Origin: Arthrobacter sp. CAU 1506
GTDB taxonomy: Bacteria > Actinomycetota > Actinomycetes > Actinomycetales > Micrococcaceae
Direction of reading: 5' to 3'
Length of the DNA: 60,842 bases
Assembly: GCF_005047635.1 (NCBI RefSeq)
Contig: NZ_SUKC01000021.1
Span: forward strand, 1 to 60,842
The translations under genes and the position numbers were made by a program. Under the pieces are notes generated by a model. It had not been told where the DNA came from and did no database searches. It saw nothing but the letters and a program-made list of their open reading frames with translations. Positions within the stretch are counted from its first letter, which is position 1. The number at the start of each line of letters is the position of its first letter. Positions 2,265-50,637 of this stretch are shown here, piece after piece.

Positions 2265-3236
2265 TCAGGCAGCGGTGCGGAAGCCGCAGTTGCTGCTGGC
2301 GGACTCAGGACTGTTGGAACTGCGCGCCGCGACTCGGTAACGGTTGCAGTATGAGTCGTGGCAGAGGAACGAGCCACCGCGCATGACCCGGTTACGGCCG
2401 ATTGTTGGCCCCTGCGGATTCTCTTCCGGAGCCTTTTGATAATATTTCGGCAGGAACCAGTCGCTGCACCACTCCCACACATTCCCGCTGACCTCGTACA
2501 GGCCAAATCCGTTTGGCCTGAAGCTACGAACCGGTGCGGTACCCAGATACCCGTCGTCGAGCGTGTTCGCCACCGGGAACTCGCCCTGCCAGATGTTGCA
2601 CAGGTGCTCTCCCGAAGGACCGTAAAGCTCGTCGCCCCACGGGTAACGCTTACCGTGGAGTCCCCCGCGGGCCGCATACTCCCATTCAGCCTCGGTGGGC
2701 AATCGCCGTCCTGCCCACCGACAGTACGCTTCGGCGTCGTTCCACGACACCTGTACAACGGGATGGTCCGCGATCGCCTGCCAACTCGAAAGGGGCCCGC
2801 AGGGGTGGGCCCAGTCGGCCCCGCGAACATTCAGCCACCAGGGTGTCCCCGATACCTGTCCTAGGATGTCCTGTGCCACTGCGCGGACCTGCAAGTGGAA
2901 CACGGCGGAGGATCCGTAGTACTCGGATTCGGTCCGATAGCCGGTAGCTTCAACAAATGCCGCGAACTGCACGTTAGTGACGGCCGTGGCATCCAGCCTG
3001 AAACCGTTGACAACTACGTCGTGGACCGGACTCTCACCATCCGACGCATAGCCCTCCCCCAGTTGATCACCCATGCTGAACCGTCCTCCGGGGATGCTCA
3101 CCTCCTCAGTAACCGTCGGCTGCTTACGTCCGAGTCCCTGCTGTACAGGCTCAGGGTCTGAAACGGAGGAAGGTCGAGACGCCGCGTCCGGTTGATGTTG
3201 CCCCGGTGCACGAGTGGGGATACCGCAACAATCCAT
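2265..3236 (-). CDS. Formylglycine-generating enzyme (sulfatase-maturing oxidase)
   Basis: A 323-residue SUMF1/FGE-family enzyme. FGE oxidises the active-site cysteine of a sulfatase to formylglycine, using O2 and copper. The family core starts near residue 45 (SIPGGRFSMGD) and includes PVVQVSWNDAEAYCRWAG, LPTEAEWEYAARGG and NVWEWCSDW. Most telling, GGSFLCHDSYCNRYR near the C terminus keeps both catalytic cysteines (about C292 and C297), which related non-FGE members such as EgtB lack. The start has AGGAGG upstream. The obvious partner is the Cys-type sulfatase at 18663-20990. An N-terminal extension of about 40 residues, with a CC pair near the start, is low in conservation signal. Confidence 0.92.
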   Translation of the reverse strand: MDCCGIPTRAPGQHQPDAASRPSSVSDPEPVQQGLGRKQPTVTEEVSIPGGRFSMGDQLGEGYASDGESPVHDVVVNGFRLDATAVTNVQFAAFVEATGYRTESEYYGSSAVFHLQVRAVAQDILGQVSGTPWWLNVRGADWAHPCGPLSSWQAIADHPVVQVSWNDAEAYCRWAGRRLPTEAEWEYAARGGLHGKRYPWGDELYGPSGEHLCNIWQGEFPVANTLDDGYLGTAPVRSFRPNGFGLYEVSGNVWEWCSDWFLPKYYQKAPEENPQGPTIGRNRVMRGGSFLCHDSYCNRYRVAARSSNSPESASSNCGFRTAA

Positions 3237-3433
3237 TGCAACCTCCTTGTCCGGTCAACCGGCCGGACGTATCACGCAGCCACTGGCGCGGGCTGAGGGT
3301 GCCCGCGCTTCGAAGGTGATTCATAGGGCACCTGCTCTGTCGACTCGATGGCGAAGCTTCCAGGGCCGGTTTTGCTGACGAGAATAGCTAAACTTGTAGG
3401 GTCTCAACCCAGTTGGCACTCCTAGACCGTCAG

Positions 3434-3466
3434 AACCGCAATTCTCAGATATTTGTCATTGCGGTT
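3434..3466. repeat. Inverted repeat, 9-bp arms
   Basis: AACCGCAAT (3434-3442) is repeated exactly in inverted form as ATTGCGGTT (3458-3466) with a 15-bp spacer. It lies about 200 bp upstream of the FGE start and could be an operator. Its role is not known. Confidence 0.5.
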
Positions 3467-3632
3467 TCTCAATGATCCTGTCATCTGACACCACTTTGCA
3501 TACATAGCATCAACCATTCCGGTGCTTCGATGCGATCCCATCGAGGTGCTGCACATTAGCTAAGACGGTTCCTAACAGAGGTTCCAGCACGTTCAAGATA
3601 AGAGCACGAAGCGCAATTTGAAAGACACTTAA

Positions 3633-3672
3633 CCCCTATGTGGGAGTTCCGGGACGAACTCCCACACAGGGG
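3633..3672 (-). terminator. Strong hairpin downstream of the demethylase gene
   Basis: Arms of 17 bp pair with one mismatch (CCCCTATGTGGGAGTTC at 3633-3649 with 3656-3672) around a 6-bp loop. It lies about 140 bp past the stop of the minus-strand demethylase gene. There is no clear T-run, so it may be a stable 3' hairpin rather than a standard intrinsic terminator. Confidence 0.5.
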
Positions 3673-3813
3673 CAGTTGCAAATCAGTACCGATCTGCAGA
3701 CAACTATTCTTGCCCTCGAAGATGTCTCGGCCTTCTATGATCAAAGGCACAAGCGGGAACCCAACATTCGGCCCCGAGCATCTCCTTTACTGGCCACTTT
3801 CCCTGATAGCTGT

Positions 3814-5184
3814 TCACGAAACAGGTTCGTGAAGGACCTCAAGGTTCGGATGAGGGATCGTCTCAACGTCGACTTCGTTGTTGTTGACGAGATCGAAGAA
3901 CGGGACGCGTGCCACAGTAGCTCGCACCTTCTTTTGAGGTGTTCCGGGACGGCCCCACACTACTGTCAACTCCTGGCCGATTTCGACATGCTTTTTGCTG
4001 ACAAAACCAATAGAGATCATTCGCCGGTAGAAGACGCTGTTGATTCGGCCGGTCGAAGTGCCAATCCGGTCACCCTTCTCGTCGAGCACCCAGTCTGCGT
4101 GGTAAACGAATCCCGAACGACCGTTCGTATTGAAGTACATGTCCACTAGTCGTTCGTCGATCGAGTCGTAGGGCTCAACGTCCCGCCCTCTGAATTGGGA
4201 CGCGAATATATCCGCAACGTCCTCTTCGTTCCAGACCAATGTAACGGCCGTGCGGTCGTCAGTCTCGGCGGCCTTGAGCAACGCCTCTCGACCTACGAAC
4301 TCATGATTGAAGTCGACCAGCTTTCTCCAGCCGACCTGTAGTGGCGTGACGAACCGGTCTTCGATTTCGTTACCGACACTGCCAACCAACTCGCGGTACT
4401 TATTGAACATTGCCGAATGGGGTCGCGTGTCGAAGAAGGCTGCGAGATCGGGGTCTTCGTACCACGGTAAGGGATAGTGCAGATTTATGTTTGGAAAGCC
4501 CGCCTCTGTGTGCTGCATCATGTAGGCCGCCTGTCCAAGCTTCTTCATTCCGAACCGCTGACCGGCTTCCCAGATGGCGCGGTAAACAGCTTCGGTGTCC
4601 TCCATGTCGCCATGGAGTTCGTAGGCGAGGCCTCCGGCCATTCCGAGTCGAATAATACGGACCGGGACGCCTGCAATCATGGCTACTCGGTGCCTGGCAA
4701 ACCTGATGTCGTGAAGGTCTTCCCCAGCCGCTTGTTCCAGTATCTCGAGTGACCGGGGTCCAGCTACCTGAATGAAAAATTCCTCAGATGTCCTGTCAGT
4801 GCCTTGCACATCGAATGTGCTGTTGAGCAGCCGGTACTCCAAGACCGGGGCGAGCCAGTATGAGCGGTAGGTGTCCTCGGAAATGCGTGCCAAGACTCCG
4901 TCGGTAAGTATCTGCCCCTTTTCATTGCACAACACTGCGTGGCGGATTTGACCGACTTCGAAGTTTGCGAGGGAATTCACGCATACCGAACGGAGGAACT
5001 CAAGAGCCTCGGGGCCACTGACGTCGTACACCGGTGAAATGCCATGGAGTGCGGTACAGATATGTGCCGTCGTTTTGGATGCGAGTATTTCGGAACGCGC
5101 ACCTTCATACTCGAAGGGGACCTGCCTAGGTCCCGCCTGGAAAAGTGTAAAGACTCCCTCAGCAATAGCAGTAGATGCTGACAT
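3814..5184 (-). CDS. GcvT-fold tetrahydrofolate-dependent demethylase (LigM/DesA-like)
   Basis: A 456-residue member of the aminomethyltransferase/GcvT fold. Known relatives of this length include LigM and DesA (vanillate and syringate O-demethylases) and the dicamba demethylase Dmt; these move a methyl group from an aromatic ether to tetrahydrofolate. Family landmarks are VYDVSGPEALEFLRSV near residue 55, FFIQVAGPRSLEIL near 140, GMAGGLAYELHG near 185 and DFNHEFVGREAL near 300. It is far too long and in the wrong setting for the glycine-cleavage T-protein. It lies downstream of hydroxyquinol dioxygenase on the same strand, and PurU and FolD, which would process the C1 unit, are in the window. 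The substrate is inferred, not shown. A paralogue lies at 36668-37948. Confidence 0.85.
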   Translation of the reverse strand: MSASTAIAEGVFTLFQAGPRQVPFEYEGARSEILASKTTAHICTALHGISPVYDVSGPEALEFLRSVCVNSLANFEVGQIRHAVLCNEKGQILTDGVLARISEDTYRSYWLAPVLEYRLLNSTFDVQGTDRTSEEFFIQVAGPRSLEILEQAAGEDLHDIRFARHRVAMIAGVPVRIIRLGMAGGLAYELHGDMEDTEAVYRAIWEAGQRFGMKKLGQAAYMMQHTEAGFPNINLHYPLPWYEDPDLAAFFDTRPHSAMFNKYRELVGSVGNEIEDRFVTPLQVGWRKLVDFNHEFVGREALLKAAETDDRTAVTLVWNEEDVADIFASQFRGRDVEPYDSIDERLVDMYFNTNGRSGFVYHADWVLDEKGDRIGTSTGRINSVFYRRMISIGFVSKKHVEIGQELTVVWGRPGTPQKKVRATVARVPFFDLVNNNEVDVETIPHPNLEVLHEPVS

Positions 5185-5596
5185 CTGTTAGTTCTCCTTT
5201 AGGTTCTGCGTGCTTCGTTGCACTGCGATTGGGCCGGCATCCGTTTACTCCGAGTTCGTTGTCATATGCACCTGCGTTGACGCAGCGTCCGCCGGCCTTT
5301 CGTCAGCCCTTCATCGTTGACGTCCTTGTCCAGGTCTTTCGGCCTGGAAGTGATGGTTTGTTCAGCCATCATTCTGCCCGCGCAGGGTTGATTCGCCCTT
5401 ACGCGTTCTATGGATCGCGTATGAGGTTGGGTATTCTCACGCTAAGGGCCGAGTGTAAGGGGCAGAACGAAGGCCCCAAGCCGTGCTGCAAACTAGGCGA
5501 AACATACCGTACCACCGTCGCGGACAGGTCAAAATGGCGACCATTCTTCCGCCGCCCCTGGAATCGTCCGCGCAGTTAGGGCGGCGATATGATGGA
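5185..5596. other. 411-bp gap; probable promoter of the demethylase
   Basis: No gene is supported here. The gap separates the dioxygenase (ends 5597) from the demethylase (starts 5184), both on the minus strand, so the latter probably has its own promoter. A short palindrome, CTGCGTTGACGCAG at 5272-5285 (6-bp arms), is a possible operator. Confidence 0.45.
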
Positions 5597-6517
5597 TTAT
5601 GCGTTCTCGGGCGCGAGGACGATGTCGAAGCGGGTGCGTACCCAGCCTTGTCCGTCGAGGTCGCGTCCGTCCGGGGCCGGCACTCCGGGGGGATGTTCCA
5701 CGAAGTCTTTGATCAGCGACTCCTTGACGCCGAAGACCGTGTCGGATTTGAGCAGGTCGTCGCCGCTGACGAAGATGTGCGTGACTAGGGTGCGTTTGCC
5801 CGATGCGGTGACCATGAAGTGCAAGTGCGAGGCGCGCATCGGGGACCGGCCGGTTGCTTCAAGCATCTGTCCCACCGGGCCGTCGTGCGGGATCGGGTAC
5901 GGGGTCGGGGTGAGGCCCCAGAAGTTGTAGTTGCCGTCCTGGTCAGCGAACAGGTGTGCGCGTCCGGCGACCCGGCCGTCGGTGTACTGGACGTCGTAGA
6001 AGCCCTCTTCGTCGGCTTCCCAGACTTCGATCCGTGCTCCGGGGACCGGGTTGCCGTCGGTGTCCCAGACGGTGCCTTCGACCCAGCAGGGCTGGCCGGG
6101 GGCGCCGCCGGCGATATCGCCGCCGATCGCGATTTCGGGGGCGTCGTCGACGAAGAACGGGCCGAACACGGTGGCCTCCGTGGCGTTCTTGTAGGCCTCA
6201 TTGTTGACGTTGATGGTCTGCATTGAGGCGCCGAGGACGTCGGAGAGCAGGATGAATTCCTGACGCTTGTCGTCGGTGATGTGTCCGGTGGCGGTGAGGA
6301 ACTCGATGGCCCTATTCCATTCGGCCTCGGTCAGGCGGACATCGCGGATGAAGGCGTGCAGGTGGGTTACAAGGCCTTGCATGAGCTCCTTAAGCCGCGG
6401 GTCGGTGCAGTTCTCGAACGAGCGCAGGACATTCCGGGTCAGGGTTTCCTCGACGGCGGACTGCTCGGCTAAGACGGCCGACCTCGATCCGCTGGTGTGG
6501 CTGGTGTCAGTCATCAT
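5597..6517 (-). CDS. Hydroxyquinol 1,2-dioxygenase (intradiol), copy 1
   Basis: A 306-residue intradiol dioxygenase. The enzyme cleaves hydroxyquinol (1,2,4-trihydroxybenzene) between the two adjacent hydroxyls to give maleylacetate, using non-heme Fe(III). The N-terminal helical linker domain of catechol/hydroxyquinol dioxygenases is present ([21 protein letters not shown]). The expected Fe ligands are seen as a Tyr in GFYDVQY, a Tyr in PYPIPHDG and the two His of SHLHF. ATG 6517 overlaps the stop of the upstream maleylacetate reductase as ATGA and follows AAGGAG, so the two are translationally coupled. That partner makes hydroxyquinol a better guess than catechol. It is very similar to copy 2 at 49711-50637. 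Confidence 0.93.
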
Positions 6518-7647
6518 GGTGCTCCTTGTTCGCGGTTCGGATTCTGGGCCCATTGGAAGGGGCTAGTTGGCACTGCTCCAGTGAGGGCGTCGGACAGCAA
6601 CATTGTGATGTTCTCTTCTGTGACAGCGACAGGGTTGGACGAGGGCGCAGCAGCTACGATTCGGCTTGTCGCTTCGGCTATATCTCGGGTGGTGAATTTG
6701 TCACCGCGCAATTGTCCTGGTGCCCCGAGCATGGTGTGCAGACCACTGAGGGCGGCAACGGCGGCCGCTGCCGGATCTTCTCCTGGATCGTGGGGGCCCA
6801 GGGAACCTGCCAGTCGGGCTGCCAGCTCGGGGACCGCAGGTGCATTCAGGGCAAGCACATATGGCAACACAGCAGCGTGGGTGGGTGCGTGTGGAAGATC
6901 GAACGTGCCACCGAGCACATGGCAGATTTTGTGGTGAAGGCCTGATCCGGCGGACGCGAAAGCTACAGCCGAGAGGTAGCAGCCGTAAAGGGCTTGCTCG
7001 CGGGACGAGAGGTCGTCGGGGTGCGCAACGAGACCCCGCAGGGCGCCCGCAAGCGACCGCGCGCCCTCCAGCGCCAGCGCTTGGTTGATCGGATCGGCCC
7101 GGGGCGCCCACAGTGAATCCACCGCATGTGCCAGACCGTTCAGGCCGGAGGAAACTGCCAGCTCTATGGGCAGGGAGAGCGTCAGCTCCGCGTCATAGAC
7201 GACGGCGGCTGGCAGCACCTTCAAATCGATTCCGGTGCGCTTTGTGCCGTTCTCCGTCAAGCCCCACATATTCGTCGCTTCCGACCCGGAGAAAGTGGTG
7301 GGTACGGAAACAATCGGTACGCTGCTGGTTAACGCTATGGCCTTCGCCAGGCCGGTCGCTGACCCCCCGCCTACCGCCACCAGAAGGTCGACTTCGGCCT
7401 CGGCCGCGGCTGCACGGGCTCGCTCGGCGTTCTCGACCGGGACATGCTGACGGACCTCGTTCCAACGCAGAGCCACGGGAATCGCGGCCGATAGTGTGGA
7501 GACCAGTTCATGGTCGCGGTTGGAGGCGATGAGCATGGCACGCTGCGCGCCAAGCCGCTGGCCCTCGGCGGCAACGTTTTGGGCGAAACGGCCGGATTCG
7601 AAGACCACGCGCTGGCCCAAAGTGATGTGCTCGAAGTTCAAAGGCAA
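6514..7647 (-). CDS. Maleylacetate reductase, copy 1
   Basis: A 377-residue iron-containing alcohol dehydrogenase-family protein of the maleylacetate reductase type, which reduces maleylacetate to 3-oxoadipate with NAD(P)H. Visible landmarks are [16 protein letters not shown] (nucleotide site, about residue 90), [14 protein letters not shown], and the metal-site region [10 protein letters not shown] with [13 protein letters not shown]. The start used is TTG 7647, preceded by GAAGGA; the next in-frame ATG would cut into the fold. It starts 46 bp after the flavin reductase gene and its stop overlaps the dioxygenase start. The C-terminal tail ([14 protein letters not shown]) is longer than in copy 2 at 48596-49684. 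Confidence 0.93.
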
Positions 7648-7693
7648 AGCGGTTCCTTCCGATGGCCGAATTCGTGCATGGAAAATCGCAGGT

Positions 7694-8233
7694 TCAGAGT
7701 ACGGAGTGGCGTCCTAGATGATGCCATGTCCGGTCGTGGTAGATAAGCGGAGACACAGCCGCCTCTGGAGCCTCGGTGACGCTGCTTTCGAGGGCTTCTA
7801 CAGCAACAATTGTTGACCCGCCCGCGTCCACGGTATTGGTGATTCGCCCTCTTATCCGGTTGACGACGGAGTGAAAGATGGGCTCGCCGGTACTGAGCCT
7901 GCGCCAGAGAGTGAGGTCAGCAAACCTGTCCAAACCGCTCGTCGAGCAGAGTTGGGCGATAGGGAGGTCATGAGCTGTTAGTAGGTGTATTACCACCGTT
8001 TCGGCCTTGAGTATGGCAGCGCTGGCCGACGAGGTTGAGGAAAGTGAGAAGGCCAGTATGGGAGGGGCCGCACTGATGGAAATAACTGAAGTAGCGGTCA
8101 GAGCGACGGGACCGTCCCCTGGGTCGGCAGTGATCACTGCCACGCCTGCAGGATGGTTTCTGAAGGCCCTCTTGAAATGATCTGCTGACAAAACGTCATT
8201 GGTGCTGTTGCGCTCTTGGACTGCAGTGTCCAT
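7694..8233 (-). CDS. Flavin reductase (HpaC-like), two-component monooxygenase partner
   Basis: A 179-residue protein of the flavin reductase-like family, which reduces FMN or FAD with NAD(P)H and hands it to a separate oxygenase. Typical segments are FRNHPAGVAVITAD near residue 25, ALTATSVISISAAPPILAFSLS and a later LAQLC-like segment followed by RFADL. ATG 8233 follows GGAAGGGAG, and upstream residues in the same frame look non-conserved. It leads an apparent minus-strand operon with maleylacetate reductase and hydroxyquinol dioxygenase, so a flavin-dependent hydroxylase making hydroxyquinol is the likely client; the monooxygenases at 12919-14160 and 41215-42465 are candidates. It is divergent from the SDR gene at 8493. 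Confidence 0.88.
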   Translation of the reverse strand: MDTAVQERNSTNDVLSADHFKRAFRNHPAGVAVITADPGDGPVALTATSVISISAAPPILAFSLSSTSSASAAILKAETVVIHLLTAHDLPIAQLCSTSGLDRFADLTLWRRLSTGEPIFHSVVNRIRGRITNTVDAGGSTIVAVEALESSVTEAPEAAVSPLIYHDRTWHHLGRHSVL

Positions 8234-8492
8234 TGCGGAGCTCCCTTCCGAATTCGGTGACCCACCAAGCAGGAAGGCCAATTGGTCCTACGAACCTATG
8301 GCTACGGGAGAGTTACGGAACAGCAGGAGATTACCCGAACGGCTACCTGATCAACATCGCCGGTTCGGATGCCCGGAAGACGCGTATAGGTAGTTCCACG
8401 CGAATCAGCGCTACCTTGCAGCGGCGAGAAACTTTCACTTCTAGGCTGGCACTCATCCGGCTATATCTTCTTTGATTTTTTAGGAGGTCATC

Positions 8493-9245
8493 TTGTCTAA
8501 TTCACCATTGACTGGGCGTACCGCACTTGTGTCGGGTGCAGGAAGGGGCATTGGTGCAGCTCATGCAGCAGCGCTCGTACAAAACGGTGCCAAGGTCGTG
8601 CTCGGTGATGTTGATGCGAAGGCGGGTGAAGCTACCGCACTGGAACTTGGGGCCGCCGCTCGCTTCACCCGACTCGATGTCACGAACCCAGATGATTGGT
8701 CTGCTGCGGTCACCATGGCCGAAGACCCGAAGTGGGGCAGCGGACACGTCGATATCTTGGTAAATAACGCAGGAGTTAGCATTCCGCGCTTACTGGAGGA
8801 TATGACTGCGGAGGAATGGCAAAAGACCCTGGACGTGAACCTCACAGGCCACTTCAATGGGATCTCGGCCGTGATTTCCTCCATGAAGCAGGCCGGCGGC
8901 GGAGCCATCGTCAACACGTCTTCGATGACGGCAACGGTACCGGTCACCAAACTGGCACACTACGTTGCGACCAAGATGGCGATCGACGGTCTGACGAAGG
9001 TAGCTGCGCTTGAGTTGGGGCGGTACGGCATCAGGGTCAACTCTCTGCATCCCGGCTATATCGACACAGCGATGATGGGCGGCGCCCGGGAGGACGCCGT
9101 GGCTGGGAACCTTCCCATACCGCGGTTCGGGCGGCCGGAAGAGGTAGCCGACATGATGATTTACATCGTTTCCCGTGCAGTTTATTCAACTGGCAGCCAG
9201 TTCGCGGTTGACGGGGGAGTAGTCTCGGGTATTGAGCACGGCTAA
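8493..9245 (+). CDS. Short-chain dehydrogenase/reductase, copy 1
   Basis: A 250-residue classical SDR. It shows the Rossmann glycine motif GAGRGIG near residue 15, NNAG near 90, the catalytic Ser in NTSSMT near 140 and Tyr/Lys in YVATK near 153, and ends in the common DGG segment. The start is TTG 8493 with a strong AGGAGG site 5 bases before it; there is no competing ATG. It is divergent from the flavin reductase operon and is followed by a strong hairpin at 9648. SDRs of this type oxidise or reduce alcohols and ketones; the substrate is not predictable. The second SDR at 26859-27698 is only distantly similar. Confidence 0.9.
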   Translation: MSNSPLTGRTALVSGAGRGIGAAHAAALVQNGAKVVLGDVDAKAGEATALELGAAARFTRLDVTNPDDWSAAVTMAEDPKWGSGHVDILVNNAGVSIPRLLEDMTAEEWQKTLDVNLTGHFNGISAVISSMKQAGGGAIVNTSSMTATVPVTKLAHYVATKMAIDGLTKVAALELGRYGIRVNSLHPGYIDTAMMGGAREDAVAGNLPIPRFGRPEEVADMMIYIVSRAVYSTGSQFAVDGGVVSGIEHG

Positions 9246-9774
9246 GCCATCAACCAGCAGGTCTCTGGTACCGTGCCGCGGAAAATCCCCTTGAAGGTGA
9301 TAAGCCGTGCTGTAGTTCAATCCAAGCTCGACGATTTCATCATCAAGAGATCGAAACGTGGCGACAGCAGTGGTGCGTGTGAATGTTTCGAGCTGAACCA
9401 TCAGATGGAGCTGCTGCCTGGAACGGTGGCACGTCGGGCGATTTGCCCCTACTCCCCCAGGCCTGCTGTGGAGCTGGCGAAATCCCAGTCCTTGCGAGCG
9501 CTTGTACCGGCGGCATAATACCGCCGGCACAATAGGCTGAAAACTTTCAGGACGGTACCGCTGCGCCCGTGAGGGATCCGGGCGGAACACGGCCACGGCC
9601 TACGTTGGAAGTTCAGCAAACGCTTACGGATGACTGGAGTAATCCACGGGCCGGAGCAGCAAAGTCCTGCTGCTCCGGCCCCAGTCTTCTTGTGCCGGAG
9701 CAGCAGGATTTGACTTCCGTTTGATGCCGAACAGTTCAACGTGAAGAAAACGGCTTCTGCTGCGCCAGGATAGA
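9246..9774. other. 529-bp gap between convergent genes
   Basis: No gene is supported. The gap lies between the ends of the convergent SDR and MFS genes and contains the strong hairpin at 9648-9681, plus a partial third copy of its arm (CCGGAGCAGCAGGA) near 9694. Confidence 0.55.
9648..9681. terminator. Perfect 14-bp hairpin, likely bidirectional terminator
   Basis: GGGCCGGAGCAGCA at 9648-9661 pairs perfectly with 9668-9681 around the loop AAGTCC. On the plus strand it is followed by the pyrimidine-rich AGTCTTCTTGT. It sits between two convergent genes, as expected for a terminator serving both. Confidence 0.75.
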
Positions 9775-11121: not shown

Positions 11122-11642
11122 CGATTTTGATGTGGTATTGAACGCAAAGAGCAGATTAGATGCGGTGCACCGGCTTCTTTTGGAGTCCGTGCAGTAAATG
11201 TTTCGATGCGGCTCCCCTTCTTAGTGGTAGCCGCGTGCATCGTAGGGACCTAAATCTGTGGAGATGGACTGGAGCGGTTGTTCCCGCTCTCAGGATGTAA
11301 GCCGCCGACCGTACTACCCTGCTGTTGGGCGGTGGGCATACCAGTTCTAGCTATACAGAGCGGCTGAGGCACTAAGCAGGTACAGCGCCTGGTTTTTGAG
11401 GACTCAAGCCCTTCGGGGCCGCCGGCTTCTATACCCCAGGGACAAGACCAGTCTCTGGGATAGCAGGTGGTCTTCCACGAGAGTTGTTTGTCTTGGCAGT
11501 CGGTTTATTCAGGCCCCGGCGATAGTTTTTCAGGGCTCCGCCCTCTAGCCGATCAGGTACTTGGACATTGCTTCTCCTATCATTAGTCGTCGAACGCTGT
11601 GGCAGTACGTAAGTAAGAGTTGTGCGAGAGGCTGCTCCATGA
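11122..11642. other. 521-bp gap with a ribosome site and a 7-codon reading frame
   Basis: No full gene is seen. Downstream of the alcohol dehydrogenase, on the minus strand, AGGAGA is followed at the right distance by ATG 11571 and a frame that reads MSKYLIG and stops. That looks like the first codons of a lost gene, or a short leader peptide. The rest of the gap should hold the MFS promoter. Confidence 0.4.
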
Positions 11643-15065: not shown

Positions 15066-15066
15066 G

Positions 15067-15963: not shown

Positions 15964-15972
15964 GAACAGTCT

Positions 15973-39558: not shown

Positions 39559-39589
39559 TCATCCAATCCTAGGGATTACTAGAGGCACC

Positions 39590-40297
39590 ATGTCCACTTC
39601 AACGAACTCACTAGCCGATGCCTGGGCGGCGAGCCCGGTGGGCCGGATCGCTGCGCCTCTACGCGAGCAGGTTATCCAGGCCTTACGCGCCGCGATCTTG
39701 GATTTCCGGCTAAAGCCGGGCCAGCGACTCGTTGAGCGGGAACTGATTGAACAGCTCGGAGTCTCGCGCACCACCGTCCGGGAAGCACTGCGGGAACTTA
39801 CCTCGGAGGGGCTCGTTACCGTGGTGCCGCAAAAGGGCGCCATCGTCAGCGCACCCTCCTTGGAAGAGGCCCGAGACCTTTACGAAGCAAGGGCAGCCCT
39901 GGAAGCGGTGGTGGTGAGGCGATTTGCCGAACGGGCATCCAAATCACAGATAATGAAGCTAGCGGCCGCGGCGGAAAGCTTTGCCGAGGTGGCCGAGGCC
40001 GGCGGTGATGCCGCCAGCGTACTGACTGCCAAGGACGTATTCTACGACGTCCTCATCGACGGCGCCGGCAGCGCGGTCCTGCAGCAGCTCACGGAGGGCA
40101 TTCAGGCGCGCGTCCGCGTGCTCCGCGCGGTGGCCATGCCTGCCGAAGGCCACTCCGCTGCGGTAGAGGAATTGCGCGGCATTGTTGAAGCCATCCAGCG
40201 CGGCGACGGTGAGCGCGCCGGAACGTTGTATTCTCGCCACATTCTTCGCGTTGTCGAGCGGGCGCTGCAGAGTCTGGAGGAAGCCGAGGGATCCTAG
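39590..40297 (+). CDS. GntR-family regulator (FadR/FCD subfamily), copy 2
   Basis: A 235-residue regulator with the same two domains as 25644-26381: winged helix with [20 protein letters not shown] and an FCD effector domain starting near [10 protein letters not shown]. The start ATG 39590 gives [19 protein letters not shown], which matches the other copy's MPTPTNSLAEAWDASPVGR, so the earlier in-frame start is rejected. The recognition helix is nearly identical in the two proteins, so they should share operators. A half site sits just upstream. Confidence 0.92.
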
Positions 40298-42512: not shown

Positions 42513-44480
42513 TCATGTGACCTGCGACGCCAGTTGTGATTTTTTCTCTCGAATGCGCGCCGTGGCAGCTTCGTCCACCTTCAGCCCCTCCGGGTCCATT
42601 TCCGGGTCGCCGATCAGTACCACGCCATAGTCCAGTGCCGCTCCCTCTACCGAGACGTACCCATCCCGAACGTCGGTGAGGACCTTGGCTGTGTCACGGG
42701 TCATCGGATTTCCCCAGCCGCCACCGGCATTTGTCAGGTAGCGCAGCACGGAGTTGGCCACCGACCGGTTCGCCCCGGGACGGAACGGATAGATGAAAGT
42801 TCCGGTCTCGGAAGGCAGGTTTGTGGCGGCATCTATCACCCCTGCCCAAGCCTCACCCTGGCCGAACGATTCAATCGTCGCGTCCGGCTCCTGAAATGAG
42901 CCATCGGCGGCAGGAGGGAACATCCAGATTCCCCCACGGCGTCCATCCTGACCGCCGTTCACCCCAAAACCGGCCACGCTCTTGTATCGCAGCTCCGTCA
43001 GCGAGTGACTGGCATCAAGAATCCATAAGGTGTCGCGGATCATGCTGGCACCGCCCCGGAAGTGGCCGGGGCCTGCCGAATCAATTCGCGGCTCGTGCCG
43101 GAGGATCACCGCCGGACTGTCCTTTTCAATCGCTTCCACGGCCGGAGCGACACCGTTTGCCAAGTAGCTCATGCACTGGCTATCGGCGTCCCCGAACTGG
43201 TTTGCGCCATAAGGGCCAATCTCGCCGCCGCATTGCAGCGCCGAGACCCAGGGTGTCCCGTTCTCATACGTTCCGAAAGCGGTGTGGATATCGGTGCTGC
43301 CGCGGTCGCCGGCCAGCGCGGCCGGTCCAAGCGCCGCCGAGAGTGCCTTCAACAATGCGCTCAGAGCCGCCGTGGACTGTTCGAAATACATAAAAACGCA
43401 CCCGTCGGGCGGCAGCGCCGAAAGCATGGTGCCTTCGGGCAGAATGATGTCGACGTCCCTGTACAAGCCGGAATTGAACCTGCCGTGCGGGTCAAAGAGG
43501 TACTTGAGGGTGATCCCCACGCTGGTCTTGGTGTCCCAAGAGGTGGCGTTGATAGAACTGCGGGCCTGCCGTGAGGTTCCGGAAAAGTCCACTTCAATGC
43601 GGCTGCCCCGCTTACGGACGGCCACTTCGATCGTATAGTCCTCGCTGTCGTCCACGCCGTCGCAGTCGATCCGCTCCGAGCCCGTCCAATCTCCGTCAGG
43701 CAGTACCGCCAGGGAAGTCGACATATGCTCAGCGCCCAGGTCACAGACGTACTCCATCGTCCCGTGGACCGCACCAAGGCCGTAGCGTTCAATGGATTCC
43801 AGGACCAGCCTCTCCCCCAGCTCCAGGCTGGAGCACACCGTCTGCATGTCCGGATAAAGGATCTCGGCCATTCTGACGTTGTCGAAGATAACGTTCCAGG
43901 ACTCCGCCACCGGCTCGCCCCCGCGGATCAGTAGCCGCGGCGAGAGGACCAGGCCGTTTTCATAGACGTTCTGCTTTGAGGCGCTAAAGCCGCCGGGCAC
44001 AGTGCCGCCCATGTCCAACTGATGCGCGTTCAAGTTCACGAAGGCCGCGATTTCGCCGTGGTGGAACACGGGGCGTACGAACAGCAGGTCGTTGTTATGG
44101 TTGCCGGTGCGGTAGGGGTCGTTGGCGATCAGCACGTCGCCAGGCTGAAGCCGATCCGCACCGAATTCCTCAACCATATTGGCCACGGCATCAATGGTGG
44201 TGCCGGCCATCAGGACGATCCCATTGCTGGCCGCCGGCACTTGGTAACCCAGTGACGGCGGACCACTGATCGTGCAGGCAAGGTCGTAGAAGTCCCGCAA
44301 AATCGGAGAGAATGCACCGGTCAACAGGCGGACGCTCATGTGCTCCACGAGATAGTCGAAGCGGTTGCTCAGGACGGTGGCGGTGTAGCGGTCGCACCCG
44401 TAACGGGCGGCGAACTCCTCTTCATTCAGATCCCGGATAAGGGCCACTCCGACAGGGCGGCTTTCGCTAGTGAGTGTCAT
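42513..44480 (-). CDS. Hydantoinase B / oxoprolinase-type subunit
   Basis: A 655-residue HyuB-family protein. The family covers N-methylhydantoinases, 5-oxoprolinases and the acetone/acetophenone carboxylases, which use ATP to activate a carbonyl or amide. Landmarks include DRYTATVLSNRFDYLVEHMS near the start, GDVLIANDPYRTGNHNNDLL near residue 120, HQLDMGGTVPGGFSA near 152 and GGASMIRDTLW near 475. The start overlaps the HyuA stop as ATGA. The last 60 residues carry RYLTNAGGGWGNP. With the A subunit and the small zinc protein it resembles carboxylase-like complexes more than simple hydantoinases, but the substrate is unknown. Confidence 0.9.
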   Translation of the reverse strand: MTLTSESRPVGVALIRDLNEEEFAARYGCDRYTATVLSNRFDYLVEHMSVRLLTGAFSPILRDFYDLACTISGPPSLGYQVPAASNGIVLMAGTTIDAVANMVEEFGADRLQPGDVLIANDPYRTGNHNNDLLFVRPVFHHGEIAAFVNLNAHQLDMGGTVPGGFSASKQNVYENGLVLSPRLLIRGGEPVAESWNVIFDNVRMAEILYPDMQTVCSSLELGERLVLESIERYGLGAVHGTMEYVCDLGAEHMSTSLAVLPDGDWTGSERIDCDGVDDSEDYTIEVAVRKRGSRIEVDFSGTSRQARSSINATSWDTKTSVGITLKYLFDPHGRFNSGLYRDVDIILPEGTMLSALPPDGCVFMYFEQSTAALSALLKALSAALGPAALAGDRGSTDIHTAFGTYENGTPWVSALQCGGEIGPYGANQFGDADSQCMSYLANGVAPAVEAIEKDSPAVILRHEPRIDSAGPGHFRGGASMIRDTLWILDASHSLTELRYKSVAGFGVNGGQDGRRGGIWMFPPAADGSFQEPDATIESFGQGEAWAGVIDAATNLPSETGTFIYPFRPGANRSVANSVLRYLTNAGGGWGNPMTRDTAKVLTDVRDGYVSVEGAALDYGVVLIGDPEMDPEGLKVDEAATARIREKKSQLASQVT

Positions 44481-46513
44481 TCCTGACCCATCCTTTCAAT
44501 CACAATCTCTGAGCAGAGCCCGATCCGCGCCTGCTGCCCGGGCAGGATGTAGGTGGTCGACAGGTCCTCGCGGATGACCGCCGGCCCCTGTACCGTGGCG
44601 CCGACGGACAGCTTCTCCCTCAGGTACTCACGGGCCTGAACCGGACCGTCGGCGACATAGTCGAGGGTGAAAACCCGTTCCGGTTCGGCAGCGAACGGCG
44701 CTGCCGCGTCTGCGGGGATGTACTCAACCTTGTCCGCGGGGACGACGAGTTCCACCCGATAGGTCACACCCTCGACTGGAATCTGGTCGAAGCGGTTGCC
44801 GTTGCGCTCCTCGTAAACATCATGGAAGGCGCCGACCATCTCACCTATGGTTCCGGCTGTGATGTCGCCGTCGGGAATCCGAATGAAAGGGGTTTCCCAG
44901 CTCTGGCCGAGCAGCCGGCCGTCGAAGCTTCTGCGGACAGGAAGCCCCTCGGCGACGGCACCCACACGGTCCCGCAGCACCTGTTCCATCTCGCCAAAGA
45001 CTCCGGCGATTTGCTCCGCGCTGTCTGAGGAGAGCACCACGTAGGCGCTGCGGGAATCGTAGAATACCTGGTCGGTGGACAGCAGGCCCAAGGCCGAGAA
45101 GAGGCCGGGATACGGCGGGATCACCGCGTTCTTGAGCGGTAACAAATCCAGAACGGCCGGCAGCAGCATCGGTCCGGCTGCACCGTAGGACATGAGGGAG
45201 AAATCTCGAATGTCCACGCCGTGGCGGACGGCGACGTTGAGGATTTCCTCGGCCATGTGGGCCACGGCCAAACGGTAGGCAGAGCGTATCCGCTCCTCGA
45301 AAGCCACCGGCGTGTCCAGTGCTGCGAAGGCCTGCTGTGCCGCTACCTTGTCCAGTTTCATCTCGCCGCCGGCGAACGATTCCCCGTCGAGGATGCCCAT
45401 CAGAAGACAGGCATCGGTAACTGCCGGCACCGTACCGCCGCGACCGTAGCAGGCCGGTCCTGGCTCGGCTCCCGCCGACCCGGGACCTACTTGGATGCCG
45501 CCTGCCGGGGAAACGCTGACCAGGCTCCCGCCGCCAGCTCCCACGCTGGAGACCTCGGTGGAGAGGGCGTTTATCACCATGTCGTGTTCGAGTTCGAAGG
45601 TGTTCTGAATGAACGGTTTGCCGTCCACAATCAGTGACACGTCCGTGGAAGTACCGCCCACGTCGGCGCACAACAGATTGCGTTCGCCAAGGGCCTCACC
45701 GAGACGGGCGCTGGAGATGGTGCCGGCTGCAGGCCCCGCGAAAACAATCCGAAATGGCTTGTTCAGGGCTTCTTCCCAGGGCAGCAAGGTGGCCGCACAG
45801 TCAGCAAAGTTCAGCTCGCCGTCGAACCCTAGGTCCCTCAGGTCCCGGTTCAAACGGGTCGAATATTCTGTGAAAAGGAGTTTCATTATGACATCGATGA
45901 CGGTCGTGGAGGCCCTGGCGTACTCCTTGGCCAGAGGGGACGTTTCGGAGGAAATGGAAACCGGAAATCCTTCTCCGAACGCCTGCCGCACCAGTTCTCG
46001 CAGGCGGATCTCATGGCTCGGGTTGACGTAACCGTTAATCGTGCAGATGGCAATGCCTTCAACATTGCACTTCTTCAAAACCGCCAACTGGCTGCGGGCG
46101 TGTTCCTCGTCCAACGGGATCAGCACGCTGCCGTCCGCCTTGATACGCTCCTTAACCCCGCGCCGCAGATACCGGGGAATCAGCGGCCGGCTGGCATCGC
46201 CGAAGGAGCGGCGCCAGGCAGGGTCCGTTTGCGCGTCGAGTGGCCTGTGGACGGTCCCGCGGTCCAGCACGTCGCGGAACCCCTCGGTGGTCAGGTATGC
46301 CACCTTGGGCAACCGCCGCTCGATCACCGCGTTAAGGCCCATGGTGCTCGCATGGTTGAACGTGGAACTGCCCGCCACGTTCAGTCTCCGGGCACCCTCC
46401 ACGACGGGTGCGGAGGGATTCGTACGACTGCTGGGCACCTTGGTGACCGAAATCGCGCCATCCCGGACGGCGACCACATCCGTAAAAGTTCCCCCAACGT
46501 CAACTCCGAACAT
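44477..46513 (-). CDS. Hydantoinase A / oxoprolinase-type ATPase subunit
   Basis: A 678-residue HyuA-family protein with the ASKHA ATP-binding fold. The N-terminal phosphate loop is GVDVGGTFTDVV and the second is LLCADVGGTSTDVSLI near residue 290. ATG 46513 follows AAGGAGG; the stop overlaps hyuB. A 14-bp overlap with the small gene upstream indicates three coupled cistrons. Subunit A would activate the substrate with ATP and B would complete hydrolysis or carboxylation. It might handle an amide or ketone branch of the aromatic substrate. Confidence 0.9.
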   Translation of the reverse strand: MFGVDVGGTFTDVVAVRDGAISVTKVPSSRTNPSAPVVEGARRLNVAGSSTFNHASTMGLNAVIERRLPKVAYLTTEGFRDVLDRGTVHRPLDAQTDPAWRRSFGDASRPLIPRYLRRGVKERIKADGSVLIPLDEEHARSQLAVLKKCNVEGIAICTINGYVNPSHEIRLRELVRQAFGEGFPVSISSETSPLAKEYARASTTVIDVIMKLLFTEYSTRLNRDLRDLGFDGELNFADCAATLLPWEEALNKPFRIVFAGPAAGTISSARLGEALGERNLLCADVGGTSTDVSLIVDGKPFIQNTFELEHDMVINALSTEVSSVGAGGGSLVSVSPAGGIQVGPGSAGAEPGPACYGRGGTVPAVTDACLLMGILDGESFAGGEMKLDKVAAQQAFAALDTPVAFEERIRSAYRLAVAHMAEEILNVAVRHGVDIRDFSLMSYGAAGPMLLPAVLDLLPLKNAVIPPYPGLFSALGLLSTDQVFYDSRSAYVVLSSDSAEQIAGVFGEMEQVLRDRVGAVAEGLPVRRSFDGRLLGQSWETPFIRIPDGDITAGTIGEMVGAFHDVYEERNGNRFDQIPVEGVTYRVELVVPADKVEYIPADAAAPFAAEPERVFTLDYVADGPVQAREYLREKLSVGATVQGPAVIREDLSTTYILPGQQARIGLCSEIVIERMGQE

Positions 46514-47055: not shown

Positions 47056-48207
47056 ATGACTACCACCAGCGGGAATACCAACCCCGCTTCTGTCCAGTTG
47101 TCAGCCCAAGCCTTCCGAGACGTCATTGGCAGGTTTGCCAGCGGCGTCACGGTCATCACCACTTGCAGCGGGGGCAGGAACTTTGGCACGACGGCTAGTG
47201 CGGTCACCTCCCTTACCGACGATCCGCCGATGCTGCTGATCTGCCTCAATAAGTCCTCGACGAGTGCGCACGCCATCCGAGAAAGCGGAACCTTCGCCGT
47301 AAACGTCCTGGCCGAGGACCATGTCCAGCTCGCCGGCCGGTTCGCCTCGAAGCTTCCGGATAAGTTCGAGGGAATGGCCTTCGAAAAGGACGGCAACGGC
47401 TCTCCCCTGCTTGTTGGGGCCATAGCCCACCTAGTCTGCAGCGTCAGCGAACAGGTCGAAGCGGGGACACACTACGTCTTTCTGGCCCGTGTCGAGGACG
47501 CCGTTGCGTACCCGGGACACCCGCTCGCTTACTTCCGCGGCGCATTTGGCCGGATGCAGATGGCCCCGGATGCCTCCGTGCTTCGGGAGGTCCGTGAACG
47601 CATCATCACCACCGTGAATGAAGTGGACCAGGCCATCGATCTCGACCGCTGGGCCGCGGAACTTGCCGTCGGCGTAGATCTGGTCCACCGAGCACTCATT
47701 GCCCTGGTCAGCGAAGGTCTGGTAAGACGCGAAGCCGGCCAATTCGTCATTGCACCGGTACCCGAAAGCATCATCTTCGAGTCCTATACCGCCAAGCTGG
47801 CGATCGAGCTTGGAGTCGCCGAAAGCACCGTGGGCCGCGTCAGCCAGGGCCAGCTTACCCAGCTGCGCCAGTACATGGAGGCCACGTTCGAGTTCATCAA
47901 GGATGACCGCTTCACGGATCCAGAAGCCTGGATCCAGGCCAACGAACGCTTCCACGAGTACATGGTGGAACTAGCCGGATCAAAGATTCTGCTGGATACC
48001 TACCGTCGGCTCGGCCTGCCCGGGCTGAATGCCCGAACCATCAACAGATCCACCTATGCAACCGCGGAGTTGCTAAACGACCACCGCAAACTTGTCGAAG
48101 CATACGAAAACAAGGACCTGGGCGCGGTAGTCGAGGTGCTGCGGGAGCACGCGGACAGGCCGCGTCAGCTGCGCGCCCGTGAACGTGAACTTTTCGGCCG
48201 GGCCTGA
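47056..48207 (+). CDS. Flavin reductase fused to a GntR/FCD regulator
   Basis: A 383-residue fusion. Residues 15-165 form a flavin reductase domain (FRDVIGRFASGVTVITT, then TASAVTSLTDDPPMLLICLN). Residues about 175-235 look like a GntR winged helix (VRERIITTVNEVDQAIDLDR, then HRALIALVSEGLVRREAG), and about 245-375 match an FCD-type helical domain (FHEYMVELAGSKILL, then ELLNDHRKLVEAYENKD). The frame is continuous with no stop. It may reduce flavin for the monooxygenase at 41215 and at the same time respond to a ligand or DNA. It is followed by maleylacetate reductase and dioxygenase genes. Confidence 0.82.
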   Translation: MTTTSGNTNPASVQLSAQAFRDVIGRFASGVTVITTCSGGRNFGTTASAVTSLTDDPPMLLICLNKSSTSAHAIRESGTFAVNVLAEDHVQLAGRFASKLPDKFEGMAFEKDGNGSPLLVGAIAHLVCSVSEQVEAGTHYVFLARVEDAVAYPGHPLAYFRGAFGRMQMAPDASVLREVRERIITTVNEVDQAIDLDRWAAELAVGVDLVHRALIALVSEGLVRREAGQFVIAPVPESIIFESYTAKLAIELGVAESTVGRVSQGQLTQLRQYMEATFEFIKDDRFTDPEAWIQANERFHEYMVELAGSKILLDTYRRLGLPGLNARTINRSTYATAELLNDHRKLVEAYENKDLGAVVEVLREHADRPRQLRARERELFGRA

Positions 48208-48595
48208 GCGAAACAACCGGCGCCGGTGACATTTGGCCGATCCCATCTACATGGAAGGAGGGACCGCGATGCCCCAGGAAAGGCAGGCTTCCAGAGCGGC
48301 CATTGCTACCGGCGTCGGGCGGGGGCGCGGTAGTGAAGTTCTGCAGCAACGAGGTACGCAGATGGTTGCGGAGGACATCGACCTGCACACCTGCTCGCGC
48401 CCGCAACGGCGGTGCATCATCAAATGTCGCATCGATATCCGGGACCGTCGGGTTCCAAAGCACCGGGCAAGTCCAGCAACCAAAGTGCCATCGTGCAGAT
48501 GTCTCGGCAGCGGCTATCGAGAACGCTCGCCAGCATTCCGGCCGTGGCCGACGCATCGGATGAACTCGCAAACACCGCGACCGAACTGGAGAACC
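48208..48595. other. 388-bp gap, possible decayed regulator
   Basis: No intact gene is convincing. A frame from ATG 48269 follows GGAGGG and stays open into the next gene, with AEDIDLHT and, in another frame, NVASISGTVG, which faintly recall the effector domain of IclR regulators. I treat this as a weak sign of a remnant only. Confidence 0.25.
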
Positions 48596-49684
48596 ATGAC
48601 GACGCCCCCGAAGCAACGCCTGAGCTCAACTTTTGAGCACGTAACCCTGGGACAGCGGGTGCTGTTCGGTTCCGCCAAGGCCGCCGAGAACCTGGCTACC
48701 GAAGTCGCCAGATTCGGAGCGAAGAGAGTGATGGTGATCGCGTCAAAATTCGAGTCGCAGACCGCCGCCGAGGTCGCCTCCGGCATCGAGGTGGCTTTGC
48801 ATTACAACGACGTGGTGCCGCACGTCCCCATCGAAAAGGCCAAGAAAGCCCGGACAGCCGCAGTCGAACACGGGATCGACCTACTGGTCTGCGTGGGCGG
48901 CGGTTCGACCACGGGCTTGGCCAAAGCGATCGCAATGACTTCGGGCCTGCCGATCGTGGCCGTACCGACCACCTATGCGGGGTCGGAGGCCACCAACGTT
49001 TGGGGCCTGACTCAAGCCGCCCACAAAGCCACTGGCATCGACGACAAGGTACTGCCCGCGACTGTGATCTATGACGCGACCCTAACCCTGTCACTGCCCG
49101 CCGACCTGTCCGTTGCGTCGGGTCTAAACGCGCTGGCGCACTGCGTCGATTCGATGTGGGGACCACGGGCGGATCCAATCAACCAGGCCCTGGCCGCCGA
49201 AGGGATCCGCGCCCTCAACGCCGGGCTCCCGCTGATTAAGCTGGATCCGCAGGGTCTGGCCGGCCGGGAACAAGCACTGTACGGGGCCTATCTGGCCGCG
49301 GTCGCGTTTGCTTCCGCAGGGTCCGGCATGCACCACAAGATCTGCCACGTCCTGGGCGGGACCTGGAACATGCCGCACGCCCAGACCCACGCAACCGTGC
49401 TCCCCTACGTGCTCGCGTTCAACGCGCCCGAAGCACCCGAGGCCACTTCACGGATTGCGGCAGCCTTTGGCACCGACGACGCCGTGGCCGGGCTGGACAA
49501 CCTCCGCACCTTCCTGGACGCACCCGAGGCATTGAAGGACTACGGCTTCAGCGAAGAGAGCATCCCCGAAGCCGTGGACCTGATCCTGCCCGTTATCCCT
49601 GCGTCCAACCCCCGCAAGCCCACCGCTGAGAACCTCACCGAGCTCCTCCGTGCAGCCACGGCAGGCACCGCTCGCGGCCTCTGA
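48596..49684 (+). CDS. Maleylacetate reductase, copy 2
   Basis: A 362-residue maleylacetate reductase of the iron-containing alcohol dehydrogenase family. It shows [16 protein letters not shown] near residue 93, [14 protein letters not shown] near 118, and [10 protein letters not shown] with [13 protein letters not shown] near 235. ATG 48596 has GGAG at a fitting distance; earlier in-frame starts add about 120 unrelated residues. It lies 31 bp before the dioxygenase gene. The gene order here is reductase then dioxygenase, as in the other copy at 5597-7647. Confidence 0.93.
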
Positions 49685-49715
49685 CCGAGAACGACCACCG
49701 GCTAGGAGAATTGTT

Positions 49716-50637
49716 CATGACCGAAACCACCGCCCCCCTCGGAACCGGTGGCACTATTGGCCCCGAGCAGCAGGCTGTTGAGCAGCAGCTCGTAGATACC
49801 GTTGTCGCCTCCTTCGACGACACACCCGACCCGCGGTTGAAGCAGGTGCTTCAGTCATTGACGAAGCACCTGCACAACTTTATTCGCGAAGTCCGCCTCA
49901 CGGAGGCCGAATGGAACAAGGGCATCGGGTTCCTCACCCATGCCGGACACATCACCGACGACAAGCGTCAGGAATTCATCCTGCTTTCCGACGTCCTCGG
50001 CGCCTCAATGCAAACCGTCGCGGTCAACAATGAAACGATAGGCGACGCAACTGAAGCCACCGTGTTCGGACCCTTCTTCGTCAACGACGCCCCCGAAATC
50101 CCGATCGGCGGGGACATCGCTGGGGGAGCCGCTGGCCAGCCCTGCTGGGTCGAAGGAACCGTCACCGACATCGCCGGGAACCCCGTCCCCAATGCCCGCA
50201 TCGAGGTCTGGGAGGCAGACGACGACGGGTTCTACGACGTCCAGTACACCGACGGACGCGTCGCCGGACGCGCCCATCTCTACTCCGACCAGGACGGAAA
50301 CTACAGCTTCTGGGGATTGACACCCACCCCCTACCCCATCCCGCACGACGGGCCCGTGGGCCAGATGCTCGTCGCCACTAACCGTTCCCCGGTCCGCGCG
50401 TCACACCTGCACTTCATGGTCACCGCGGAGAACTTGCGCACCCTCGTCACCCACATCTTTGTAAAGGGCGACCCCCAGATCGAGATCGGTGATTCCGTCT
50501 TCGGGGTGAAGGAATCATTGATCAAGACGTTCGAGCAGCAAGCCGCCGGCACACCCACTCCCGACGGTCGCGACATCGCCGAGCAAACCTGGGCCCGAAC
50601 CCGATTCGACATCGTCCTCGCCCCAGAAGGCACCTAG
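49716..50637 (+). CDS. Hydroxyquinol 1,2-dioxygenase (intradiol), copy 2
   Basis: An intradiol dioxygenase of about 306 residues, highly similar to that at 5597-6517 over its whole length. It has the linker domain ([21 protein letters not shown]) and the Fe ligands in [15 protein letters not shown] and SHLHF. The ATG at 49717 follows AGGAG and gives MTETTAPLG; a TTG two codons earlier (49711) is in the same frame but less likely. It is downstream of maleylacetate reductase and is the last catabolic gene before the transposition module. Confidence 0.93.

Follow-up and report, generated by a model that had tools for sequence, protein, structure and literature searches.

The closest described relatives of the gene cluster considered here are two GcvT-like, folate-dependent proteins, namely SesA, the sesamin demethylenase of the actinobacterium Sinomonas sp. 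no. 22, and BrdA of berberine degraders (PMC5547118). To these may be added PipA, a methylenetransferase acting on the methylenedioxyphenyl group, which belongs to the 48-gene piperine cluster of another actinobacterium, Rhodococcus ruber No. 14 (PMC12753220). Our cluster lies in Arthrobacter sp. CAU 1506 on a stretch of 60,842 bases (hereafter the window: the whole of contig NZ_SUKC01000021.1, C14 in our numbering, in a genome of 4.24 Mb), where 3.8–50.6 kb carries two GcvT-like genes, two purU, one folD, two class D flavin monooxygenases (FMO), two flavin reductases (FR), two maleylacetate reductases (MAR) and two hydroxyquinol dioxygenases (HQD). These assignments come from family (profile) searches, with some start codons being our own choice, and they bear out both the inventory and the span of an initial annotation made from the sequence. 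We propose, with confidence and doubt about evenly balanced, that the cluster is a catabolic island whose substrates are one or several plant aromatics bearing a methylenedioxy ring (1,3-benzodioxole; sesamin, sesamol or piperonyl types).

The known systems each share a part of this set. The excerpted text on SesA and BrdA mentions no hydroxyquinol pathway (PMC5547118). The R. ruber cluster leads from piperine through piperonylic acid to protocatechuic acid, whereas the ring enzymes of the window are of hydroxyquinol type, and both matches to "hydroxyquinol" in the accessible text of that report are to 8-hydroxyquinoline (PMC12753220). As for ring cleavage, plasmid pACHL02 of Pseudarthrobacter chlorophenolicus A6 carries two HQD and two MAR, 61–81% identical to HQD2 and MAR2 of the window, along with a flavin reductase extended by a helix-turn-helix (HTH), but its 25-kb stretch has no GcvT-like gene, purU or folD, and its monooxygenases are annotated as other families. 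We take this to be the chlorophenol cluster, named cph. In the sad cluster of Microbacterium sp. BR1, two class D monooxygenases and a reductase lead to 1,2,4-trihydroxybenzene (PMC5693940). The BR1 stretch compared here, taken as sad from its gene order (two monooxygenases, reductase, relaxase-like and YjgF-like frames), is devoid of one-carbon genes, and its two monooxygenases, presumed to be SadA and SadB, are only 24–29% identical to FMO1 and FMO2, which falls short of orthology; its reductase is 52% identical to FR1 over 171 aa. The doubled HQD/MAR set is already known, from pACHL02, as is folate-dependent demethylenation, but the joining of folate-dependent demethylenation to hydroxyquinol cleavage in one route was not found in the open-licence literature searched.

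The core genes of the window are:

3814–5184 (−): GcvT1, candidate SesA-type folate-dependent demethylenase; R81, H82, D95, R100, R179, E189, Y221 and H225 at SesA numbering
36668–37948 (−): GcvT2, second demethylenase-type GcvT-like protein; H82, D95, R100, R179, E189 and H225, with K81 and A221
14157–15065 (+): PurU1, 10-formyl-tetrahydrofolate (10-formyl-THF) deformylase
35683–36606 (−): PurU2, 10-formyl-THF deformylase, immediately downstream of GcvT2
15067–15963 (+): FolD, methylene-THF dehydrogenase/cyclohydrolase, likely GTG start
12889–14160 (+): FMO1, oxygenase part of a class D two-component flavin monooxygenase, HsaA-like
41215–42465 (−): FMO2, second class D flavin monooxygenase
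7694–8281 (−): FR1, flavin reductase
47056–48207 (+): FR2, flavin reductase with GntR-type HTH and FCD ligand-sensing domain
6514–7647 (−): MAR1, maleylacetate reductase
48596–49684 (+): MAR2, maleylacetate reductase
5597–6517 (−): HQD1, hydroxyquinol 1,2-dioxygenase, intradiol
49717–50637 (+): HQD2, hydroxyquinol 1,2-dioxygenase, intradiol

Both GcvT-like proteins have the GcvT fold (PF01571; E 8.2e-36 for GcvT1 and 1.8e-36 for GcvT2). In SesA, residues R81, H82, R100, R179 and H225 are expected to act on the methylenedioxy ring, with D95, E189 and Y221 predicted to bind THF; according to the portion of the report at hand, all BrdA proteins keep the ring-acting set except R81, and D95 and Y221 vary in BrdA too (PMC5547118). 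A MAFFT alignment places all eight residues in GcvT1 at SesA's own numbers 81, 82, 95, 100, 179, 189, 221 and 225 (five of five in the proton-donor set R81, H82, R100, R179, H225; three of three for THF). GcvT2 has six of the eight, with K81 and A221 instead (four of five and two of three, respectively). Hence, H82, R100, R179 and H225 are common to both proteins and to SesA and BrdA, while SesA's R81 is also in GcvT1 (PMC5547118). LigM of Sphingobium SYK-6, which with DesA belongs to the same superfamily and uses the same folate acceptor, carries Q82, Y100 and T225. Among 44 GcvT-like genes, counted after skipping frames matched over <600 bases, H82 and H225 occur together in 25 and Q82 without H225 in 19, with no mixed cases; R81 is confined to three, namely GcvT1, a relative on pTPELB2 of DSL2, and EP60837_a of Sphingobium sp. 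EP60837. The spacing between positions 100 and 179 points the same way: it is 79 residues in SesA by its published numbering, in GcvT1 and the two proteins closest to it, and in a single K81 protein of Streptomyces; it is 77–86 in the other H82 proteins and 90–94 in LigM-type proteins. R81 and the 79-residue gap coincide only in GcvT1 and the DSL2 and EP60837_a proteins (three of 32 aligned rows; none of ten further genes).

The same separation is seen in a tree of those 32 rows, which were obtained from 35 extracted rows by removing four (one half gene and three second extractions) and adding LigM; the rows L041_2604_1396 and L041_2589_1381 are the same gene of a large actinobacterial genome (G373), leaving 31 distinct genes, with the 44-gene count free of this doubling. 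GcvT1 and its DSL2 and EP60837_a relatives form one clade (support 100/100) and 15 LigM-type rows (14 distinct genes) another (100/100), with GcvT1 and GcvT2 both falling outside the latter. Residue identity and spacing suggest that SesA itself would belong to the GcvT1 clade. Neither protein reaches the NCBIfam cut-offs for LigM (188 bits for GcvT1 and 277 for GcvT2 against 580) or for DesA, which was compared through its NCBIfam model alone (182 and 292 against 800). The case for a demethylenase is weaker for GcvT2, whose group is placed beside the LigM clade when the tree is midpoint-rooted, than for GcvT1.

The genomic context of metF bears on the same distinction. A methyl group on THF must pass through MetF before it reaches FolD, a step that a methylene group does not need, and the product of SesA is said to be 5,10-methylene-THF. 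Neither a Pfam model nor tblastn detected metF in the window, despite the presence of folD and two purU; this fits methylene transfer, since a carbon arriving at the methylene level needs no MetF. LigM-based growth in a new host, on the other hand, is reported to have needed MetF and LigH (PMC12997858, in the part accessible). Further, the only two metF (PF02219) matches in the Arthrobacter genome, on contigs C42 and C2, both adjoin LigM-type paralogues, which have metF at two of their three loci. Across genomes, metF is near one of the 18 loci with only H82/H225 genes (the exception, in genome G165, being at the stretch edge), 11 of the 14 with only Q82 genes, and both of the loci with the two kinds together (Agrobacterium 15-1187-1-2a and G373). 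The contrast between the first two groups has a Fisher p of 3e-5 under the assumption of independent loci, which related genomes are not; the flanks are also unequal, with five Q82 loci spanning about 4 kb in all and most H82 loci 20–60 kb, a bias that runs against the result. In nine loci chosen from hit lists for organism spread before their context was seen, metF accompanied none of four H82/H225 loci and all five Q82 loci.

The GcvT1 type is rare within its class and family, with matches at E 1e-50 in four of 394 genomes of the class and at E 1e-52 in seven of 395 of the family (our genome included in each case). The linkage proposed in the initial annotation between a folate-dependent one-carbon module (GcvT-like, FolD, PurU) and hydroxyquinol cleavage is reinforced by its recurrence on plasmids of two other bacteria: GcvT-like genes, folD, purU, HQD and MAR occur together without metF in a 49-kb stretch of pEP1 of Sphingobium sp. 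EP60837 and a 45-kb stretch of pLRE138 of R. erythropolis R138. Like the window, each has two GcvT-like genes. On pEP1, one H82/H225 gene adjoins purU. The GcvT1 relative EP60837_a lies 30 kb away, downstream of folD, folB, a MAR and a dioxygenase that share its strand; in between are lactonase-like, beta-hydroxyacid dehydrogenase and short-chain dehydrogenase/reductase (SDR) genes, the first two types about 8 kb or less from the GcvT1 relative. On pLRE138, the two GcvT-like genes accompany folD, MAR, HQD and purU. Neither stretch has a class D FMO match, R138 having P450 and Rieske genes instead. To our knowledge, and with no search aimed at these strains, neither locus has a published function. 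Elsewhere, an FMO-FolD-PurU-GcvT series shares one orientation in Rhodococcus opacus G13, and GcvT, PurU and FolD are adjacent to each other in genome G750. Within about 20 kb, the G373 locus (contig C5) combines both types of GcvT-like gene, five in all, with one metF and two copies each of folD and purU.

Within the window, the ATG of PurU1 overlaps the stop of FMO1 (ATGA), so PurU1 is probably translationally coupled to FMO1, and the probable FolD start is one base past the PurU1 stop; given this overlap and abutment, FMO1-PurU1-FolD look like one translational unit. On the minus strand, FR1, MAR1, HQD1 and GcvT1 are co-directional, GcvT1 being set off from the others by a gap of 0.4 kb. 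PurU2 comes directly after GcvT2, and a third group is made up of FR2-MAR2-HQD2. Promoter-like sites (two observed against 3.4 expected) and terminator-like sites (16 against 10.2) over 3.0–16.2 kb were not used. The duplicated genes are not recent tandem copies, judging from pairwise identities of 36% (GcvT), 34% (FMO), 73% (HQD), 58% (MAR), 62% (PurU) and, over 124 aa, 25% (FR). The window holds two of the genome's three PF04444 matches, two of its five PurU matches above cut-off and two of its five long GcvT-like proteins of the LigM/SesA kind, a concentration in 60.8 kb of 4.24 Mb that exceeds chance. Outside it, there is a third MAR and HQD pair on contig C10 and a third close FMO relative (38–39% identity) on contig C18.

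HQD1 matches the solved hydroxyquinol dioxygenase 1tmx at E 8.6e-141 and the best catechol dioxygenase at only 5e-34, which makes it an enzyme of the hydroxyquinol, not the catechol, kind by sequence. MAR2 matches 3iv7 at 4.5e-146 and the maleylacetate reductase 3w5s at 2.5e-66; HQD2 and MAR1 were assigned through their similarity to HQD1 (73%) and MAR2 (58%). FMO1 and FMO2 have, by sequence, the acyl-CoA-dehydrogenase fold and are related to HsaA and HPAH C2, with reductases present in the window. FR2 is a single 383-aa chain joining the reductase, HTH and FCD domains. Dietzia lutea has a relative of full length (396 aa, 37%) and the A6 cluster an HTH-only one (259 aa, 42%); FR2 may act as a reductase gated by its substrate or as enzyme and regulator in one.

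Sequence establishes the gene families, their conserved residues, the placement of both GcvT-like proteins beyond the LigM clade, the coupling of genes within operons, the lack of metF and the recurrence in other bacteria, whereas we infer the substrate, the order of steps and the role of each FMO. Upon uptake of the substrate, GcvT1, and probably GcvT2, would move the bridging carbon to THF, giving a free catechol and 5,10-methylene-THF, which FolD would oxidize to 10-formyl-THF for PurU to split into formate and THF. The freed ring would be hydroxyquinol directly if the substrate were sesamol, as demethylenated sesamol is hydroxyquinol; otherwise, FMO1 and FMO2, with FR1 and FR2, would hydroxylate or ipso-hydroxylate it to hydroxyquinol. 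HQD and then MAR would take hydroxyquinol to 3-oxoadipate. The further genes of the window, some of which may have parts in this scheme, are:

21250–22143 (+): lactonase-like hydrolase, metallo-beta-lactamase fold, acyl-homoserine-lactone-lactonase-like; relatives near the GcvT1 relative of pEP1
22140–23114 (+): beta-hydroxyacid dehydrogenase 1, 3-hydroxyisobutyrate-dehydrogenase-like
23909–24820 (+): beta-hydroxyacid dehydrogenase 2, 3-hydroxyisobutyrate-dehydrogenase-like; relatives in the pEP1 stretch
23111–23512 (+): cupin protein
23518–23916 (+): carboxymuconolactone decarboxylase-family protein 1
24823–25617 (+): carboxymuconolactone decarboxylase-family protein 2, two domains
25644–26381 (+): GntR1 regulator, 69% identical to GntR2
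39542–40297 (+): GntR2 regulator
8493–9245 (+): SDR dehydrogenase
26859–27698 (+): another SDR dehydrogenase
11643–12845 (−), 28140–29225 (+) and 33036–34130 (+): zinc alcohol dehydrogenases
29391–33031 (+): NMT1-type ATP-binding cassette (ABC) transporter (binding protein, two permeases, ATPase), candidate uptake system
9775–11121 (−): major facilitator superfamily transporter
42513–46513 (−): HyuB and HyuA (hydantoinase/oxoprolinase family), upstream of FMO2
18663–20990 (−): sulfatase, CAPAR (C-x-P-x-R) formylglycine motif
2265–3236 (−): formylglycine-generating-enzyme-type protein, CHDSYC at residue 292
15973–18330 (+): large LuxR-type ATPase regulator

A more ambitious version of this scheme, which we regard as rather unlikely, is the complete catabolism of a furofuran methylenedioxy lignan of the sesamin/sesamolin type. 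GcvT1 and GcvT2 would open its two methylenedioxy rings, and FMO1 and FMO2 would ipso-hydroxylate each 4-substituted catechol, releasing hydroxyquinol and leaving behind an oxocarbenium-stabilized furofuran core; the lactols so formed would be oxidized to lactones by SDR or alcohol dehydrogenases for the lactonase-like hydrolase to open, and the two 3-hydroxyisobutyrate-dehydrogenase-like enzymes would oxidize the bis-hydroxymethyl acid. A single chemistry would then account for finding the pairs of GcvT, FMO, HQD/MAR and beta-hydroxyacid dehydrogenase genes together with a lactonase; the short alternative is sesamol, which would give hydroxyquinol in one folate-dependent step. For pinoresinol, a furofuran lignan with methoxy rings, the available text of two reports describes a putative ipso-hydroxylase and methoxyhydroquinone as a product in Pseudomonas SG-MS2 (PMC12997858, PMC12607616). 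By analogy, the same ipso chemistry on a demethylenated ring would yield hydroxyquinol, methoxyhydroquinone being its methoxy counterpart.

Some neighboring features deserve mention in their own right. GcvT2-type genes in several genomes adjoin an NMT1-like or other ABC substrate-binding protein, which suggests a dedicated uptake system. Contig C18 bears (at 2473–16754 of the stretch) a second HyuA-HyuB-FMO set, whose FMO is 38% identical to FMO2; accompanied by SDR genes and an NMT1/ABC transporter, this set parallels the HyuA-HyuB-FMO2 block in the window. The CAPAR sulfatase and the formylglycine-generating-enzyme-type protein, of which we take the CHDSYC motif to be the mark, hint at the additional use of a sulfated compound. 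Next to GntR1, the frame at 26378–26764 matches both ends of FMO2 (51% over 45 aa and 40% over 68 aa) and is probably a decayed, internally deleted monooxygenase; this remnant and the 69% identity of the two regulators indicate that a GntR and FMO block was seemingly duplicated, with one copy decaying. Adjoining HQD2, 50961–57421 holds a Tn7-like set on one strand, comprising TniA, TniB, a TnsA-like protein (below the Pfam cut-off) and a long TniQ whose C-terminus carries an HTH, beside which a search for transposon-end repeats yielded no convincing ones. A plasmid origin of the island was considered and dropped, as megablast of 1–24 kb and 34–58 kb against plasmids gave only short matches covering ≤4% of the query. 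Degradation of sulfonamides, suggested by the one GcvT1 match to a named genome, that of the sulfonamide degrader Microbacterium sp. BR1, was likewise rejected as a function and retained as a precedent for mechanism: the BR1 gene is LigM-type, P450-, ferredoxin- and dihydroxyacetone-kinase-type frames lie 6–10 kb off (by eye), and FMO1 and FMO2 have only the low identity to the presumed SadA and SadB given above.

Several observations weigh against a methylenedioxy substrate and give substance to other readings. The comparison with SesA is one of residues and spacing rather than whole-sequence identity, and those residues are themselves predictions in the text that we could draw on (PMC5547118). 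In the midpoint-rooted tree, the GcvT2 group (six H82 proteins) is drawn beside the LigM clade and not GcvT1, albeit with weak support (85/73); as GcvT2 also lacks R81 and Y221, H82/H225 may be an old trait retained by enzymes of several functions. LigM, moreover, is the best solved-structure match of both proteins (E 1.3e-38 for GcvT1 and 1.6e-65 for GcvT2). The DSL2 protein, the closest relative found for GcvT1 (54%), comes from a record bearing an anaerobe's label, and its neighbors show no evident connection in the ten of 36 picked frames that were scanned. The initial annotation had favored LigM/DesA-like O-demethylation of a methoxy-aromatic, and in its present form, this reading has GcvT1 and GcvT2 acting on a methoxylated hydroquinone or resorcinol, with the 5-methyl-THF recycled by a MetF encoded elsewhere. 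The superfamily does include LigM and DesA, the genome encodes metF outside the window, from where MetF could act, and the pinoresinol precedent serves this alternative equally well, for methoxyhydroquinone, the demethylation of which gives hydroxyquinol, is reported from pinoresinol breakdown (PMC12607616, in part). On an Agrobacterium plasmid, moreover, a LigM-type gene is accompanied by purU, metF and a match (37%) to an HQD-like intradiol dioxygenase, which indicates that methoxy chemistry and intradiol cleavage do meet. However, both proteins of the window score low against LigM and DesA, lie outside the LigM clade, lack Q82 and the 90–94 spacing, and carry the SesA/BrdA residues, and metF was found neither in the window nor, with one exception, at the 17 other loci of this type; for these reasons, we judge a methylenedioxy aromatic the likelier substrate and a methoxylated one unlikely.

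Similarly improbable in our estimation is a composite island, in which a hydroxyquinol module for compounds of the phenol/resorcinol type and one or two unrelated folate modules, serving different substrates, accumulated beside the Tn7-like element. Part of the window may indeed be accretion, as suggested by its block composition, the duplication and decay around GntR and FMO2, and the Tn7-like genes at 50.9–57.4 kb: G+C at third codon positions is about 0.61–0.70 for most genes of 3.8–18.3 kb (HQD1 being an exception at 0.84) and 0.76–0.88 for most of 21–34 kb. Nor is the ring-cleavage partner general, since HQD and MAR are both present at three of the 18 H82/H225-only loci and missing from the stretch examined at the other 15, and A6 has the doubled HQD/MAR without GcvT. 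Set against this, GcvT1 comes after FR1-MAR1-HQD1 and is read the same way, FMO1 shares bases with purU1, purU1 in turn abuts folD, and the same core stands together in Sphingobium and Rhodococcus. The H82/H225 group also has members without aromatic context: in Deinococcus and on a 7.5-kb Psychrobacter plasmid, they adjoin a small multidrug resistance (SMR) efflux gene and a TetR regulator, and these copies probably represent a different use of this protein type. It is in this light that one may consider a transfer of the one-carbon group from a non-aromatic or N-/S-methyl substrate, as in the wider family, where DmdA and the sarcosine and trimethylamine N-oxide enzymes are among the matches and the Psychrobacter and Deinococcus relatives have their SMR transporters. 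The scores to those families are far below the cut-offs, and the neighbors in the window are aromatic-pathway genes, leaving this the least credible of the alternatives and a very improbable one.

If a methylenedioxy aromatic is indeed the substrate and GcvT1 turns sesamol into hydroxyquinol and 5,10-methylene-THF, the cluster would link folate-dependent demethylenation to hydroxyquinol cleavage. Beyond this organism, the H82/H225 pair taken together with the metF context furnishes a candidate rule for sorting the family into methyl- and methylene-transferring types. Its members are often annotated as "aminomethyltransferase" or "vanillate demethylase", and the candidate rule would be applicable to many genomes.

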